Of a stretch of DNA of 52,283 bases, positions 1 through 5,522 are shown one piece after another. The notes beneath the pieces were generated by a model. It had not been told where the DNA came from. It made no database searches and saw nothing but the letters and a program-made list of their open reading frames with translations. The translations under genes and the position numbers were made by a program. Position 1 is the first letter of the stretch, and each line of letters opens with the position of its first letter. This stretch comes from Candidatus Saccharimonadota bacterium (lineage in GTDB: Bacteria; Patescibacteriota; Saccharimonadia; Saccharimonadales; Saccharimonadaceae): the NCBI GenBank assembly GCA_017545585.1, contig JAFWMK010000015.1:1-52283 (forward strand), in the 5' to 3' direction.

Positions 1-157
<157 letters not shown>

Positions 158-328
158 TTGAGAAGGAATTAGACGTCTGAAAGTCTTCGGACTCGCAGAT
201 AGTCAGGTCGGAATACGTGTTATGATTAGCAAGCTTGAATCATAACAACTCTGGTTTTACCAGACGTAGTATTAAGCTAACAACAAGAACTAAGATAATG
301 ATTGCACAACCAAATTGTTAAACTTTAA
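158..328 (+). other. 16S 3' trailer with hairpins, no 23S
   Basis: This is a transcribed spacer after the 16S. A perfect hairpin with 9-bp arms GTTATGATT/AATCATAAC lies at 219-247, and a second one TCTGG/CCAGA follows at 251-265. I see no tRNA, no 23S start and no ORF. These hairpins may be processing sites for the 16S precursor (inference). Confidence 0.6.
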
Positions 329-358
329 AAAACCGCCCCAAAAAGGACGGTTTTTTGT
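329..358 (+). terminator. Intrinsic terminator after 16S trailer
   Basis: The arms AAAAACCG and CGGTTTTTT with inner CC/GG pairs and an A-rich loop are followed by a T run. It sits between the plus-strand rRNA and the minus-strand MazG gene and can work in both directions. It ends the rRNA transcript without a 23S gene. Confidence 0.8.
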
Positions 359-367
359 TGGCTGCAA

Positions 368-709
368 TTATCTTTCGTCTCCACTGCCATGGATTTTGTT
401 TCTTTGATAGCGGTCCTCTAATTTAGCGACATTTTTTGAGGCCACCTCAGATAAGGGAAGATCAAGGTATCTTGCAATCGAAGCTAGGTACCACAACACA
501 TCCCCGAGTTCTTTGCAGATTGCCAATCGATCTTCCTCGGATATCGTACCATTTTTATCGCGCAAAATTTTCTTAATTTTGTCTGCCGTCTCGCCCGCTT
601 CACCAGTGAGACCTAAAACTTTCTCAATAAACCCCACTTCAGTTAAATCACACTTAGAATAAGTATCGTATTTGACGATCGCCTCTTGATATTTGTCAAA
701 CTCCGTCAT
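368..709 (-). CDS. MazG-like nucleotide pyrophosphohydrolase
   Basis: 113 residues, typical of a single-domain all-alpha NTP pyrophosphohydrolase that cleaves (d)NTPs to monophosphates and pyrophosphate, a house-cleaning role. The metal-binding signature is visible as GEAGE (EAGE, ~37-40) followed by an acidic helix KELGDVLWYLASIA (~66-79), matching the family's ExxE...ExxD pattern. The start has a strong AGGAGG site a few bases upstream. It has its own extended -10 (TGCTATAAT, minus strand, box at 731-736) just upstream of the gene, in the gap after the TrmB-like gene. The exact substrate (dCTP, oxidised or other nucleotides) cannot be read from the sequence. Confidence 0.85.
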   Translation of the reverse strand: MTEFDKYQEAIVKYDTYSKCDLTEVGFIEKVLGLTGEAGETADKIKKILRDKNGTISEEDRLAICKELGDVLWYLASIARYLDLPLSEVASKNVAKLEDRYQRNKIHGSGDER

Positions 710-741
710 TTTACCTCCTATACATATTTAATTATAGCACG

Positions 742-1518
742 TTATTTTTTATCCAACTCGTCTTGATCAGTGGATTTGCGGATATATTTTTTGGCGAACA
801 AAAACACTTGCCGCATAGCATCGGCTATTTCTGGCGATTCGATCAGTGTAGACATCCCATTTTTTGAAAAATTAATAAAAGCTACATTGTCACCAAAGAT
901 ATCAATCTCCACCGGTGAATCGTATTCTTCAGGGGGAATTAGTGTCCGATCGAGTAAATACTTTTTCAACACCTCTTGATTGCTATTTCTTACATAACCT
1001 GCCTGCGCGATATCTTCAGCTTTTATCCCTAATTCCACTCGTTCACTTCTGAAATTCTCTAGCATCTCTGGGCTAGTAATTTTGTCATGGCGACTCCGCA
1101 CAAAATAATAAGGTTTTTTGGTGGCAAGCACTTTGTTCCAAATCATCTGCCTCCCCTCCATCCCATAGAAAGTTTTCACCCCAGGTTTATTCTGATGTTC
1201 GTTATAAAAATTAATCAGGGAGGGAAGATTACTCTCTAGATTCCGTGCTTGCCTAGCCACGCTCCGCAAACGTTTTTCAGCAATCGACTCTAGAATGGAA
1301 GGATGGGAGGGCGCGTAAGCAGAGATTTTCCCCTTATTTTTTTGCGCGATGATACCAAGTTTATCCAATTTTTCTAGGGCAGAATAGACCGTAGTTCGAT
1401 TTTCTTCGATACCTGTAGCTATTTCTGACGCAGTTCTTTGCCCATGCAAAATCAGATATAAATATATTTTTGCTTGTAATTCCGACAAGCCGGCTTGAGT
1501 CAAAACTTCTGTATCCAT
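742..1518 (-). CDS. TrmB-family transcriptional regulator
   Basis: 258 residues from the chosen ATG. The N-terminal ~75 residues form a winged helix: LTQAGLSELQAKIYLYLILHG, then ASEIATGIEENRTTVYSALEKL as recognition helix, then a wing ending in YAPSHP. The remainder looks like the TrmB effector-binding half, with FYGMEGRQMIWNKVL (~120). TrmB proteins usually regulate sugar or metabolic genes, but no ligand can be named here. A longer reading frame reaches 1533. I prefer 1518 because TATAAT (1525-1530, minus) ends exactly 6 bases before that ATG, the leaderless pattern seen throughout the window. It lies directly upstream of MazG with a 32-base gap. Confidence 0.8.
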   Translation of the reverse strand: MDTEVLTQAGLSELQAKIYLYLILHGQRTASEIATGIEENRTTVYSALEKLDKLGIIAQKNKGKISAYAPSHPSILESIAEKRLRSVARQARNLESNLPSLINFYNEHQNKPGVKTFYGMEGRQMIWNKVLATKKPYYFVRSRHDKITSPEMLENFRSERVELGIKAEDIAQAGYVRNSNQEVLKKYLLDRTLIPPEEYDSPVEIDIFGDNVAFINFSKNGMSTLIESPEIADAMRQVFLFAKKYIRKSTDQDELDKK

Positions 1519-1544
1519 AATTCTATTATACATCTTTTAATACA

Positions 1545-1567
1545 TTTGTCGACACTATTTCGACAAA
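1545..1567. repeat. Inverted repeat of cassette 1 (operator or recombination site)
   Basis: Perfect 8-bp arms TTTGTCGA (1545-1552) and TCGACAAA (1560-1567) flank CACTATT. The same site occurs at 2332-2354. In both copies a conserved CACCCCTGTAAAA block begins 36 bases after the first base of the repeat (1581 and 2368) and the -10 box begins 93 bases after it (1638 and 2425). This fixed phasing argues for a regulatory operator. A tyrosine-recombinase crossover site is the alternative. Confidence 0.7.
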
Positions 1568-1580
1568 ATTTTGAATTTTT

Positions 1581-1593
1581 CACCCCTGTAAAA
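1581..1593 (+). promoter_or_regulatory. CACCCCTGTAAAA motif, cassette 1
   Basis: Thirteen bases identical to 2368-2380 in cassette 2 and at the same distance from both the inverted repeat and the -10 box. The sequence between the repeat and this motif differs between the two copies, so the motif is conserved on its own. The ACCCCTG core recurs near 20373 and twice at 45938-45956. Confidence 0.5.
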
Positions 1594-1614
1594 TCACGAA
1601 GCCGTCGTGGCCAA

Positions 1615-1643
1615 TTGCTTTTTATGATATATTATGTTATAAT
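1615..1643 (+). promoter_or_regulatory. Promoter of cassette 1
   Basis: The -10 box is TATAAT at 1638-1643 with upstream TG (TGTTATAAT). TTGCTT at 1615-1620 is a plausible -35 at 17-base spacing. It predicts a ~50-base leader ahead of the ORF at 1701, which has a GGGGGAAAAGAT ribosome binding stretch. Confidence 0.7.
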
Positions 1644-1700
1644 TACAAAGGTAAACATCGTGGTGTGTTTTGCAAATTAATAATAACAGGGGGAAAAGAT

Positions 1701-2147
1701 ATGAAGAAAGAAGAGCTGGAGGCGTTAAGGCAGGAGTTAGATCGGCAGGGGTGCGACACATACATGGGCGTGCTCAATGAAGAGCACGTGTCTTACATCT
1801 CGGCCGGAGGCAGCAATTTCTATGGCTTTAACATAGACTTCGGCGCCATTGCCGATCGTTGCTACAGGTCCGACAACAGGCGGGTTAAAGTCATTCTCTT
1901 TGAGAATGACGAGCAGAGCTCGTACTACTGGTCAATTTTCTTCGAGCGTGGGGAAAGCCATATTGACTTGATGGTCCATCCTCTCAGCGAAGATTTCCGC
2001 GCGGAGATCATTGGCGTGGACTGCCTCCTAAAAGTGTTCCCAGAGCTGGTCGCATACGCGCAGAAATATTTAGCGCGGAACTGGAAACGTATTACCAACC
2101 GCTTCTACAAGAAGGAGCGTGAGGAATACGAAAACGCTATCGTGTAA
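1701..2147 (+). CDS. Uncharacterised accessory protein, cassette 1
   Basis: 148 residues, not recognised. It begins with a charged helix (KKEELEALRQELDRQG), has a central stretch with beta-strand character (VKVILFEND, YYWSIFFERG, IDLMVHPL), and ends in a basic, aromatic helix (YLARNWKRITNRFYKKERE). There is no signal peptide or membrane segment. The start at 1701 is chosen for GGGGGA upstream; an in-frame ATG at 1665 lies very close to the expected transcription start and lacks a site. The codons are visibly richer in G and C than neighbouring genes, suggesting transfer. It is the cargo of the first of two cassettes with matching flanks. By analogy with cassette 2 it could be an anti-defence or phage-type protein, but nothing in the sequence proves that. 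Confidence 0.75.
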   Translation: MKKEELEALRQELDRQGCDTYMGVLNEEHVSYISAGGSNFYGFNIDFGAIADRCYRSDNRRVKVILFENDEQSSYYWSIFFERGESHIDLMVHPLSEDFRAEIIGVDCLLKVFPELVAYAQKYLARNWKRITNRFYKKEREEYENAIV

Positions 2148-2157
2148 GCGGCCAGCC

Positions 2158-2262
2158 AAAACTTCATATTGGGTGATGAGCCCCGTGAGAGAGCTTCGCA
2201 TTGAAGACCTAGGGAACCTATTGTCGTCCCACGGTCCGCGGCCCCTCACGCAATTAGACAAT
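2158..2262 (+). ncRNA. 3' structured pseudoknot RNA, copy 1
   Basis: It starts 10 bases after the ORF stop. Bases 2158-2212 are identical to 2866-2920. Visible helices: outer CGTGAG (2184-2189)/CTCACG (2245-2250); inner hairpin CTTC/GAAG; a long hairpin GACC (2206-2209)/GGTC (2233-2236) capped by GGGA/TCCC. The hairpin loop ATTGTC (2220-2225) is complementary to GACAAT (2257-2262) downstream, giving a pseudoknot. In copy 2 the cap helix is AGAAA/TTTCT, so it is preserved by compensatory change. Function is unknown. Confidence 0.7.
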
Positions 2263-2271
2263 TCTGTATAC

Positions 2272-2304
2272 GCTCCTGGCATAATATCGCCAGGGGCTTT
2301 TTTC
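2272..2304 (+). terminator. Terminator of cassette 1
   Basis: GCTCCTGGC (2272-2280) pairs with GCCAGGGGC (2289-2297) over 9 bp with one G-U, followed by seven T. It closes the transcript containing the ORF and the pseudoknot RNA. Confidence 0.85.
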
Positions 2305-2331
2305 TTGCTCACGAATACGACAAAACCACTA

Positions 2332-2354
2332 TTTGTCGACACTATTTCGACAAA
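2332..2354. repeat. Inverted repeat of cassette 2
   Basis: TTTGTCGA (2332-2339) and TCGACAAA (2347-2354), identical in arms and 7-base centre to 1545-1567, and again followed 36 bases from its start by CACCCCTGTAAAA (2368-2380). Confidence 0.7.
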
Positions 2355-2401
2355 ATTTCAGCCAATTCACCCCTGTAAAAACAGAAAAATGGAACTTGCA
2401 A

Positions 2402-2430
2402 TTGACAAAAACTAAGAATCTTGGTATAAT
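2402..2430 (+). promoter_or_regulatory. Consensus sigma-70 promoter of cassette 2
   Basis: TTGACA (2402-2407), 17-base spacer, TATAAT (2425-2430) with an upstream TG. It is one of the best promoter matches in the window. Predicted start is near 2437, giving a ~75-base leader that contains GGGAGCGCTTCCC (2470-2482), a potential hairpin. Confidence 0.85.
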
Positions 2431-2514
2431 GGTTGTAACAATTGAATAAAGTTGTAGTAATTTAAAAGTGGGAGCGCTTCCCATAAGGCGCGTGGAGTGA
2501 GGGGGCTCCAACAT

Positions 2515-2856
2515 ATGGCAAAGAAATTTTTTGGCTTTGCACTGGCGGACAGCATGTTCCAGGGCGACTGCACGATTAATCGCAAGACCCTGACGGCTGA
2601 AGAGGTGAAGGCGATGGCCGGGGATCTGACTCCGTGCCTCAACCCGAGCCACCAGGCTACCATCGCCGCGATGCGGCAGCGGTACGGGATCGAGGTGGAA
2701 ATCCCCGAGACCCCGCCGCGGGTAGCCCTGGAGTCCGGCGACAGCGTGATCGTGATGGGGGTTCGCGGATTACCGCGGCTCACCGATCGGCACGAGTACA
2801 CCGAGGAGGAAATCGCACAGGCGACCTTCTCCTTTTCGGAGTACACTGTCAGCTAG
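2515..2856 (+). CDS. DUF1874-like protein (AcrIII-1 / STIV B116-type ring nuclease fold)
   Basis: 113 residues, the usual size for DUF1874. The pattern resembles that family: an N-terminal strand (FFGFALADSMF), a helix LTAEEVKAMAG, then NPSHQATIAAMRQRYGIEVEI, then a proline turn, ESGDSVIVMGVRGLPR and a C-terminal EEEIAQATFSF segment. In viral AcrIII-1 the equivalent conserved histidine (H47 in SIRV1 gp29) cleaves the CRISPR type III messenger cA4; here His46 sits in the matching position. Family assignment is from memory of the pattern, not a search. The neighbouring glycine-rich loop is less canonical, so activity is uncertain. Codons are strongly GC-rich. Start 2515 is preferred over 2497 because GAGGGGG precedes it. 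Confidence 0.65.
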   Translation: MAKKFFGFALADSMFQGDCTINRKTLTAEEVKAMAGDLTPCLNPSHQATIAAMRQRYGIEVEIPETPPRVALESGDSVIVMGVRGLPRLTDRHEYTEEEIAQATFSFSEYTVS

Positions 2857-2865
2857 GCGGGCCGT

Positions 2866-2968
2866 AAAACTTCATATTGGGTGATGAGCCCCGTGAGAGA
2901 GCTTCGCATTGAAGACCTAGAAATCATTGTCGTTTCTAAGGTCCGCGGCCTCTCACGTCTAAGACAAT
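2866..2968 (+). ncRNA. 3' structured pseudoknot RNA, copy 2
   Basis: It begins 9 bases after the stop of the DUF1874-like gene. Outer helix CGTGAGAG (2892-2899)/CTCTCACG (2950-2957) is 8 bp. The long hairpin arm at 2914-2923 pairs with 2933-2943 with one bulged A. Loop ATTGTC (2926-2931) pairs with GACAAT (2963-2968). Compared with copy 1, stem bases change in pairs while the loop, the downstream GACAAT and the GGTCCGCGG linker stay fixed, which is good evidence for selection on RNA structure. Confidence 0.7.
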
Positions 2969-2975
2969 TTTTATA

Positions 2976-3003
2976 CCCCTGGCAAAATATGCCAGGGGAT
3001 TTT
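2976..3003 (+). terminator. Terminator of cassette 2
   Basis: CCCCTGGC (2976-2983) pairs with GCCAGGGG (2991-2998) and is followed by ATTTT. The next gene's -10 box starts only 10 bases later. Confidence 0.8.
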
Positions 3004-3024
3004 GCATTATGATATAATATCTCC

Positions 3025-3555
3025 ATGGAAGACACCCGAAATCTCATCGATAAATTCAAAGGTCAGTCAAACGAACAAATTTTTGATACACTTTCAAAAA
3101 CTCGGCAATCTTTAGAAATTGCTATCGAAAATGTTGAACACGATTTTAATATCGGTTCGATCGTTAGGACTGCCAATTCTTTTAATGTAGCAAAGGTCCA
3201 TATCATTGGTAAGAAAAAATACAATCGTCGCGGTGCTATGTGTACAGATAAATATCTCGAAATTGTTCATCATGCTAGCTTGGAAGACTTTTTAAAAACC
3301 CAAGAAAACAGGGAACTAGTTGCCATCGAAAACAACCTTGACCGCGCTAGGCCTCTGCACGATAAAAAGTTTATTCAAAACACCACTCTAATTTTTGGCT
3401 CCGAAAATAGCGGTATCACCAAAGAACTACTAAGTCGAGCAGAAGATGTCCGGTATATCGAATCATTCGGCTCTACTCGTTCTGTTAATGTTGGTGCTGC
3501 TGCCGCTATCGCGATGTACGAATGGACCAGGCAGATTCTATTTGCCAGTAATTAA
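3025..3555 (+). CDS. TrmH/SpoU-family RNA 2'-O-methyltransferase
   Basis: 176 residues, a SPOUT-class enzyme using S-adenosylmethionine to methylate ribose in tRNA or rRNA. The three SpoU motifs are visible: motif 1 NIGSIVRTANSF (~41-52), motif 2 LIFGSENSGIT (~122-132) and motif 3 STRSVNVGAAAAIAMYEW (~150-167) forming the knot that binds SAM. It is short, with no N-terminal RNA-binding extension, like compact TrmH/TrmL forms, so the target base cannot be decided. TATAAT at 3013-3018 (TGATATAAT) ends 6 bases before the ATG, predicting a leaderless transcript independent of the cassette upstream. Its 3' end overlaps the convergent small gene by 18 bases. Confidence 0.88.
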   Translation: MEDTRNLIDKFKGQSNEQIFDTLSKTRQSLEIAIENVEHDFNIGSIVRTANSFNVAKVHIIGKKKYNRRGAMCTDKYLEIVHHASLEDFLKTQENRELVAIENNLDRARPLHDKKFIQNTTLIFGSENSGITKELLSRAEDVRYIESFGSTRSVNVGAAAAIAMYEWTRQILFASN

Positions 3556-3771
3556 GTGGACCAAAAGTCCCAAAATCAAAGTATGCAGATTCATGGCTAC
3601 AAGTAGTCCTACCACAATCGTGATTACCCCAAAGAGCTTCACTTTTTCGTAAGAAGAAACTCCGCTTGCAAGATTCTCTGATATCTGTCGATGAAAAAAC
3701 ACTATTGCGCCCCCTGCAGCCGCAATCAAAAGTCCACCAATCAGCCACCCGATACTAAAAGTAAAATCCAT
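3538..3771 (-). CDS. Small two-helix membrane protein
   Basis: 77 residues from the ATG at 3771. Two hydrophobic segments, IGWLIGGLLIAAAGGAIVFF (~6-25) and LFGVITIVVGLLVAMNLHTLILGLLV (~46-71), flank a short polar loop. No family recognised. The start is set by TATAAT (minus, 3778-3783) ending 6 bases before it; a longer open frame to 3831 would begin upstream of the promoter. The 3' end overlaps the methyltransferase gene tail to tail. Confidence 0.65.
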   Translation of the reverse strand: MDFTFSIGWLIGGLLIAAAGGAIVFFHRQISENLASGVSSYEKVKLFGVITIVVGLLVAMNLHTLILGLLVHLITGK

Positions 3772-3845
3772 AACCCTATTATAGCATAAAACTTGCATTT
3801 TTGGGGTATTTGGTGTAAAATAGAATAGCACCTTACCATTTTTAT

Positions 3846-3922
3846 GGGGTAATAGCTCAGTTGATTAGAGCGCCGCCTTTGCAAGGCGGAGGTCCAGGGT
3901 TTGAGTCCCTGTTACTCCACCA
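3846..3922 (+). tRNA. tRNA-Ala (TGC)
   Basis: Acceptor GGGGTAA pairs with TTACTCC (one G-T). The D-arm contains AGCTCAG, the anticodon loop reads CTTTGCAAG (anticodon TGC), and the T-arm GGGTTTGAGTCCC is intact. CCA is encoded (3920-3922). It is followed ~100 bases later by tRNA-Ile, the pair often found inside rRNA spacers but here away from the rRNA. Confidence 0.95.
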
Positions 3923-4018
3923 CGGTAGGAGATGAGAGAAAGCCTCAAATTCATTTGAGATTTTCCGAATCGACGCCCCGTGGACGACTTTTACTAACGT
4001 AAAAGTCAACCATCGGAT

Positions 4019-4095
4019 GGGGATATAGCTCAGCTGGTTAGAGCGCGTCACTGATAATGACGAGGTCTATGGTTCAAGTCCATATATCCCCACCA
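4019..4095 (+). tRNA. tRNA-Ile (GAT)
   Basis: Acceptor GGGGATA/TATCCCC, D-arm AGCTCAGCTGGTTAGAGC, anticodon arm GTCACTGATAATGAC with anticodon GAT, T-arm with GGTTCAAGTC, and encoded CCA at 4093-4095. A terminator follows at 4109-4130. Confidence 0.95.
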
Positions 4096-5220: not shown

Positions 5221-5249
5221 TTGACAAAACGGAAGCGCTATGATATAAT
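5221..5249 (+). promoter_or_regulatory. Consensus promoter of the KGG-protein gene
   Basis: TTGACA (5221-5226), 17-base spacer, TATAAT (5244-5249) with TG extension. A full consensus promoter predicts strong expression. The two GTTCGG direct repeats upstream (5182, 5205) are candidate activator sites. Confidence 0.88.
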
Positions 5250-5318: not shown

Positions 5319-5522
5319 ATGTCTGGAACCAAAGCCGGCGGTATGAAAGCCGCTGCTACTAACAAAGCCAAATACGGTAAAGAGTTTTATGCTCGTATCG
5401 GTAAAAAAGGTGGCCAAAATGGTCACACCGGCGGTTTTGCTGCTAACCCAGCCCTTGCACGTATCGCAGGTGCTAAAGGTGGCCGTATCTCTCGTCGTGG
5501 CCCAGCTAAAAAAGCTGCCTAA
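5319..5522 (+). CDS. Small basic KGG-motif protein
   Basis: 67 residues, rich in Gly, Lys and Ala. It contains the KGG stress-protein style motifs GKKGGQNGHTGGFA (~28-41) and AGAKGGRISRRGPAKKAA (~50-67). Such proteins (YciG/GsiB/con-10-like) are stress-linked or nucleic-acid-associated in other bacteria; the mechanism is poorly known. The basic tail suggests binding to RNA or DNA (inference). A consensus promoter and a CGGAG site 8 bases before the ATG suggest an abundant protein. Its stop overlaps the convergent peptidase gene by 4 bases. Confidence 0.75.
   Translation: MSGTKAGGMKAAATNKAKYGKEFYARIGKKGGQNGHTGGFAANPALARIAGAKGGRISRRGPAKKAA

Follow-up and report, generated by a model that had tools for sequence, protein, structure and literature searches.

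What kind of genetic device holds unrelated genes in one and the same frame? The question is raised by positions 1545–3003 of contig JAFWMK010000015.1 (assembly GCA_017545585.1) of a Candidatus Saccharimonadota bacterium, where two short open reading frames (ORFs) lie in tandem, each set between an operator and a promoter on one side and a structured RNA and a terminator on the other. The window, i.e. the whole stretch of 52,283 nt that was analyzed, belongs to a genome that is 76% complete, and all data are metagenome assemblies. Saccharibacteria are very small and live on other bacteria. From the letters of the window alone, the locus had been described as an expression or mobility platform with exchangeable cargo (hereafter, the sequence-only reading). 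On the sequence comparisons reported here, it is probably best explained as a TrmB-controlled expression platform whose exchangeable cargo serves, in part, counter-defence, and which occupies a chromosomal locus that is conserved in Saccharibacteria of the ruminant gut.

Anatomy of the two tandem units

The two units (1545–2303 and 2332–3003) consist of the following elements, listed together with the gene for the putative regulator.

742–1533, minus strand: TrmB-family winged-helix regulator, divergent from the platform (Pfam TrmB, E 7e-12); start codon 11 nt from operator 1
1545–1567, plus strand: operator 1, inverted repeat TTTGTCGA-N7-TCGACAAA; found in 29 of 394 genomes, co-varies with TrmB paralogs
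1581–1593, plus strand: word CACCCCTGTAAAA, unit 1; same place in relatives and with diverged operators
1615–1643, plus strand: promoter 1, TTGCTT-17-TATAAT; consensus form in relatives
1701–2147, plus strand: ORF1, cargo of 148 aa, G+C at third codon positions (GC3) 68%, no confident family
2164–2266, plus strand: R1 pseudoknot RNA, copy 1; loop ATTGTC pairs with 3' GACAAT
2272–2303, plus strand: intrinsic terminator 1, hairpin z -5.7
2332–2354, plus strand: operator 2, identical in sequence to operator 1 and, like it, recurrent in relatives
2368–2380, plus strand: word CACCCCTGTAAAA, unit 2; conserved in relatives
2402–2430, plus strand: promoter 2, consensus TTGACA-17-TATAAT, also consensus in relatives
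2515–2856, plus strand: ORF2, cargo of 113 aa, GC3 80%, predicted DUF1874/AcrIII-1/Crn2 fold (Foldseek E 1e-5, VIA Z 9.4–12), invariant His46
2872–2972, plus strand: R1 pseudoknot RNA, copy 2; core z -3.6, pairing analysis
2976–3003, plus strand: intrinsic terminator 2, hairpin z -4.6

The coordinates confirm the identical order and base-exact spacings on which the sequence-only reading was built. In both units the word starts 36 nt (1581 and 2368) and the TATAAT box 93 nt (1638 and 2425) from the start of the operator, and the RNA block follows the end of the ORF by 10 nt in unit 1 and 9 nt in unit 2. A 28-nt block that includes the operator is identical in the two units (1544–1571 and 2331–2358), the operator spacer being conserved as well, and so is a 55-nt block of the RNA (2158–2212 and 2866–2920, 55/55). 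The ORFs, by the same reading unrelated and foreign in codon use, indeed give no alignment with each other at E ≤ 100, and their GC3 of 68% and 80% compares with 33–46% for 17 other genes of the window. No third operator was found downstream of unit 2.

Recurrence of the frame and exchange of cargo

The identity of the operators and of the 55-nt RNA block within one genome is what a recent tandem duplication would leave behind, with cargo subsequently diverged or replaced and no wider meaning. However, the promoter regions of the two units are just 74% identical, and the frame is found with other ORFs in many genomes of two genera. Duplication may be part of the history of the locus but leaves this recurrence unexplained; as a full explanation it is refuted, and we give it almost no weight.

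A degenerate form of the operator (TTTGTCGANNNYATTTCGACA, one mismatch allowed) was found at 43 places in 29 of the 394 genomes of the family, as opposed to a single match for the reversed control. At nearly all 43 places it is followed after about 36 nt by the word YCCYCTGT and then by TTGACA-N17/18-TATAAT; the few matches that lack the word and promoter (such as those in G062, G084 and contig 2 of G223; G numbers denote genomes) lie inside genes and look like chance. The exact operator and word pattern is present in 16 stretches among 84,980 species, all of them Candidatus Saccharibacteria and, where an animal source is stated, all from ruminant gut (cattle, goat, sheep, yak); it has no match in IMG/VR. 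Other units, which form a class of their own (G169, G181, G136, G323, G280, G389, G152, G094, G282 and contig 3 of G371), combine the operator, word and promoter with a different leader and have no adjoining TrmB gene.

The ORFs at these places are many and unrelated, GC-rich and thus foreign in composition, and often phage-like. In G331, unrelated ORFs follow a promoter and leader that are 81–91% identical over about 365 nt, after which the similarity breaks; the common leader is 87% identical over 300 nt in G358 and 85% over 345 nt in G230, again with an abrupt end. Conversely, relatives of ORF2 are found behind a short leader and ahead of R1 (the window and G309), behind a long leader without a recognized R1 (G235), and between a long leader and R1 (G223). 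Thus, one frame carries unrelated ORFs and one ORF family occurs in different frames, and there is little doubt that the flanks form a platform with exchangeable cargo, as the sequence-only reading proposed. Neither of the outcomes it had named as contrary was found: the flanks extend beyond one genome and the two ORFs are not relatives.

The putative TrmB regulator and its operator

The protein encoded next to unit 1 scores 45.4 bits against the Pfam TrmB cut-off of 25.6. Orthologs with 60–72% identity adjoin the array in relatives, and the divergent layout is seen in most array loci. Close orthologs (at least 60% identity) are encoded in 16 of 174 genomes of the genus, and all 16 possess the operator, either exact or with one mismatch (14 genomes) or of the TTTGTCAA type (G249 and G266). 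The TrmB gene of G249 has one internal stop, and the match in G266 is in two pieces. In 14 genomes the TrmB gene has an operator of one of the two types immediately upstream, while in the other two, G311 and G371, the operator lies elsewhere in the locus.

TrmB paralogs with 32–35% identity are accompanied by other palindromes, TTTGTCAA..TTGACAAA in G278 and G384 and TTTGTAAA..TTTACA in G314, and the CCYCTGT word appears again 3' of each of these; some paralogs have no recognizable palindrome in the stretch inspected. TTGTAAA palindromes are also found near ORF2 relatives in G238 and G195, about 36 nt from the word, as in the window. Across these five genomes the word is kept at about 36–50 nt from the diverged palindromes. 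That the palindromes change together with the regulators is the strongest indication available for binding by TrmB, which is highly likely to be the regulator of the platform. The anatomy of the frame and the link between TrmB and operator are what the data support; the direction of regulation is what we infer.

Structured RNA modules

Among the fetched loci, R1 was found in 12 copies in 9 genomes, always within these arrays. Its helices P0 and P1 consist of standard pairs in 97% of cases and contain 7 pairs with double changes, compared to 29–47% and at most 1 for the slid controls. Helix P2 and the pseudoknot between the loop and the 3' strand form in all 10 copies examined, through one of three pairings (ATTGTC/GACAAT, (T)TCGTC/GACGA(A) and TGCC/GGCA). 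The compensatory changes in the main helix, together with this pairing, bear out the pseudoknot of the sequence-only reading. A covariance model of R1 detected two genomes outside its training set (G231 and G223, E 1e-7 to 1e-20), in both of which the R1 locus adjoins a TrmB gene with variant operators; the long leader, ORF2 relative and R1 of G223 form a single unit.

Two further modules show covariation, each with 7 pairs: R2, identified in 8 copies (G358, G371 and G311), and the leader of about 200–300 nt, for which 14 copies were aligned. In G331 another element of about 85–120 nt (CCCGACCCCGGGGAGAAACGGGT...AAAGGAGATAGCTATGGCTAACTC) precedes the ORFs of a series (locus L077); since CCCGACCCCGGGGAGAAACGGGT, the Shine–Dalgarno sequence and the start codons are repeated with it, several different ORFs begin with MANS. 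The description of R1 as a 3' element holds for the window, where it lies beyond the stop codon in both units. Elsewhere, R1 and R2 are located after ORFs, between ORFs or in 5' leaders, so this label is too narrow.

R1 precedes a terminator in the two copies of the window and in G171, in which the next ORF is of the radical SAM type. Such an order might be expected of a riboswitch that senses a ligand, or of an attenuator, with control over this terminator and the following gene, and the similarity of the cargo would then be secondary. However, no single class of genes lies downstream, R1 has no Rfam match, G309 lacks a terminator between R1 and the next ORF, and in G230 R1 is part of a 5' leader with another ORF. 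We regard a riboswitch as unlikely. That the RNA elements protect mRNA is a more attractive possibility, which we still rate at somewhat less than an even chance.

A comparison of the window and of 11 array loci with Rfam gave scores above the gathering threshold for rRNA and tRNA families only; R1, R2, the leader and the element of G331 had no match. An exact 20–21-nt core of R1, which is too specific a query, was not found in the genome and viral collections; a degenerate R1 pattern had 26 viral matches, which lack the P1 helix and whose number is close to chance by a rough estimate. The R2 model, run over 295 genomes, yielded one convincing further site, a partial copy near SpoU in G062 (locus L132, G062:C8). 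G062 has no close TrmB ortholog, and the copy, which adjoins a RelB-like antitoxin/toxin pair, is apparently a relic array. A DNA search with the promoter half produced many matches that are merely generic consensus promoters. No description of these elements was found in the literature collection searched, which is a partial one.

ORF1, ORF2 and the ring nuclease fold

No homologs of ORF1 were detected in other arrays, phages or the PDB, its only hit being DUF7718 at E 0.024, and PADLOC had no match for either ORF. ORF2 was modelled with AlphaFold from two sequences (pLDDT 77). In a Foldseek search of the PDB, ranks 1–17 all belong to the DUF1874 family (E 1e-5), and the confident matches include the viral anti-CRISPR protein 6scf and Csx1-Crn2. 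The VIA Z-scores are 9.4–12 against 2j85, 2x4i, 6scf, 2j6b and 8y7f and 8.6 against a further Csx1-Crn2 entry, while the next unrelated structure scores 2.9; the predicted fold is that of STIV B116 and SIRV1 gp29. The sequence itself remains below the gathering score of Pfam PF08960 (15.9 bits vs 26, E 0.015). ORF2 homologs are encoded in 8 further genomes. The stretch GDxxxVMGVRGLPRLTDRHEYTEEE is conserved among homologs, and His46, at the start of the helix 44–57, is invariant in 4 of them. With the ORF2 profile no relatives were found in viral contigs, and there is separately one weak phage match of 25% identity. Judging by the modelled fold, ORF2 is quite likely to be a ring nuclease.

Other cargo and the question of counter-defence

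Outside the window, proteins similar to Csx3 constitute a second, independent cargo family (G171, G302 and others; PADLOC Csx3, E 7e-6). Csx3 has the conserved residues H60, D69, R71 and H80 (PMC7371418), and the cargo proteins have H76, D85, R87 and H96 at the same spacings; in 11 sequences H76, D85 and H96 are invariant and R87 nearly so. Nine of these 11 homologs come from viral contigs. The best Foldseek matches are 3wzg and 3wzi, weak at E 0.03–0.04. R1 accompanies the Csx3-like ORF in G171, G262, G246 and G231, and G302 has another 3' structure instead. In G262 (locus L084) the ORF runs straight into R1, the C-terminal residues and the spacer ahead of R1 being missing, by natural variation or decay.

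The remaining cargo includes a phage-family protein (phrog_30542, E 5e-23), polynucleotide kinase (PNK)-like kinases, an HD protein, a MoxR-type ATPase and a cysteine desulfurase/radical SAM set. The arrays of L077 (G331) and L080 (G358) are closed by such a three-gene set, which consists of a cysteine desulfurase-like protein (PADLOC SspA/DndA, E 1e-26) and two radical SAM proteins, the first with a weak match and the second with CPVGCKYC; the set may be a system for modifying DNA or RNA. The G+C content of the cargo is mostly 47–64% in the arrays, and that of the viral contigs with Csx3-like homologs is 23–60%; the cargo could owe its composition either to a common GC-rich donor pool or to selection within the platform.

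No Cas10 scored above the cut-off in 18 array genomes, so the predicted ring nucleases do not obviously belong to a CRISPR system of these bacteria themselves, and for this reason a counter-defence function would be directed against another system. The hint of a ring nuclease in the sequence-only reading has thus been strengthened, both by the fold of ORF2 and by the recurrence of a second ring nuclease-like family. Its "anti-defence island" agrees with these two families, and whether counter-defence is the general purpose of the platform we consider slightly more doubtful than not.

Genomic locus and the question of mobility

The order of the locus is conserved in relatives: 16S rRNA, MazG, TrmB, the array, SpoU and the genes for tRNA-Ala and tRNA-Ile. 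In the window, the flanking genes are the following.

1–156, plus strand: 3' end of 16S rRNA, left flank kept in relatives
368–709, minus strand: MazG-like gene, conserved neighbour (Pfam MazG, E 1e-11)
3025–3555, plus strand: SpoU rRNA methylase, right flank kept in relatives (Pfam E 7e-27)

Genes for tRNA-Ala and tRNA-Ile are often located in the 16S–23S spacer. No 23S rRNA follows the 16S 3' end in the window, and the two tRNA genes lie 3.7 kb downstream, past the array; the rRNA operon (region 1–4095) therefore seems to be split, with the array in the gap. A KGG-repeat stress protein (5319–5522, Pfam E 5e-8), with a TTGACA–TATAAT promoter at 5221–5249, neighbours the locus in relatives as well.

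Arrays of unrelated ORFs parted by near-identical elements of about 120 nt (eight copies in G331, four of R2 in G358) are reminiscent of integrons, in which case the R elements or the operator, with its conserved spacer in the window, would be attC-like sites and an integrase would move the cassettes. However, none of the 8 genomes searched has a tyrosine recombinase match on an array contig: the best match of each is on another contig, in G000 the only match. The R elements are of several kinds across genomes and occur on either side of ORFs, which is not the pattern of attC sites; the conservation of R1 tracks the RNA pseudoknot; operator spacers vary freely among the units of one genome; and no third site follows unit 2. 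An integron-like array is very unlikely.

A relic of a prophage or phage satellite, with morons kept under an old phage repressor, would explain the phage relatives of the cargo (phrog_30542, the Csx3-like proteins of nine viral contigs, the PNK-like kinases) and the likeness of the regulator and operators to a lysis/lysogeny control region. Against it, the array has a fixed chromosomal place by 16S, MazG and SpoU, no phage structural gene was recognized among the cargo examined, and the operator, R1, R2 and the 5' element of G331 were not found in viral contigs. Such an origin appears to us improbable, if less so than an integron.

Reverse transcriptases are likewise absent or unlinked to the arrays. 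In the absence of a linked integrase or reverse transcriptase, the "mobility platform" of the sequence-only reading is unsupported, and the lack of further operators, the conserved locus and the viral searches point the same way. Homologous recombination at the repeated modules is then the simplest route by which cargo would be exchanged.

A model of the platform and its comparison with known systems

Under the proposed mechanism of the TrmB-controlled platform, a signal sensed by TrmB would switch its own gene and every operator-bearing unit. The strong promoter would yield a transcript that begins at a stable 5' stem-loop and continues with a structured leader, a cargo ORF with a strong ribosome-binding site, an R element and a terminator, and the stem-loop, leader and pseudoknots may protect or tune this mRNA. 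ORFs would be swapped when near-identical RNA-coding modules undergo homologous recombination, without a dedicated integrase and with intragenomic duplication as an option. ORF2 and the Csx3-like proteins would degrade the cyclic oligonucleotide alarm signals of another system. Several observations sit poorly with this picture. The genomes of some units (G169, G181, G280, G323 and G389) have no close TrmB ortholog; the operator, about 90 bp upstream of the -10 box, is in an unusual position for simple repression; and a few ORF2 relatives (G316, G389 and contig 1 of G195) lie outside a recognized frame. Most cargo families have no assigned function, and the cysteine desulfurase/radical SAM set, the PNK-like kinase and the HD protein need not be involved in counter-defence.

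Aca-regulated acr-aca loci have a dedicated helix-turn-helix regulator, an inverted-repeat operator, a strong promoter and small, unrelated, exchangeable cargo. The platform resembles them in all these respects, including proteins of anti-CRISPR type among its cargo and a regulator that is linked to, and co-varies with, an inverted-repeat operator in the promoter region of the cargo. It differs in that the regulator is of the TrmB family and divergently encoded, the operator is far upstream of the -10 box, and the locus is a chromosomal, multi-unit regulon with long structured leaders and R pseudoknots. By analogy, the platform may work like an Aca-regulated acr locus without necessarily being one. 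With chromosomal integron arrays it shares unrelated ORFs parted by near-identical elements at one locus, but it has no linked integrase, its units have their own promoter, operator and terminator, and the elements are RNA structures on either side of the ORFs. ORF2 is similar to AcrIII-1/Crn2 in its predicted fold, and its invariant histidine, which opens a long helix, is a candidate counterpart of the catalytic one; its sequence identity is 12–21%, its Pfam score is below the cut-off, and no Cas10 was found in the genome. Likewise, the second cargo family has the residue spacing of Csx3/Crn3 but a weak structural match to solved Csx3. The regulator has the N-terminal domain of TrmB sugar regulators, above the Pfam cut-off, but is linked to cargo arrays and not to sugar transport genes.

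A bolder proposal, which we put forward as rather less likely than the platform's general role in counter-defence, is that of a new kind of device: one regulator and interchangeable RNA modules would form a plug-in mRNA frame for unrelated, mostly counter-defence genes that are swapped without a site-specific recombinase, and every uncharacterized ORF would be a candidate inhibitor of a bacterial defence, perhaps the host bacterium's own.

Three candidate structured RNAs with covariation, R1, R2 and the leader, fall outside Rfam, and their role on both sides of exchangeable ORFs is directly testable. The signature of the operator, the CCYCTGT word and the leader or R elements finds accessory genes by their frame and not by homology, which gives it value in the Saccharibacteria, a phylum about whose accessory biology very little is known. 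As two independent families of ring nuclease type occur in one frame, the other cargo may include new counter-defence proteins, and the frame may mark further such genes that are yet to be discovered.

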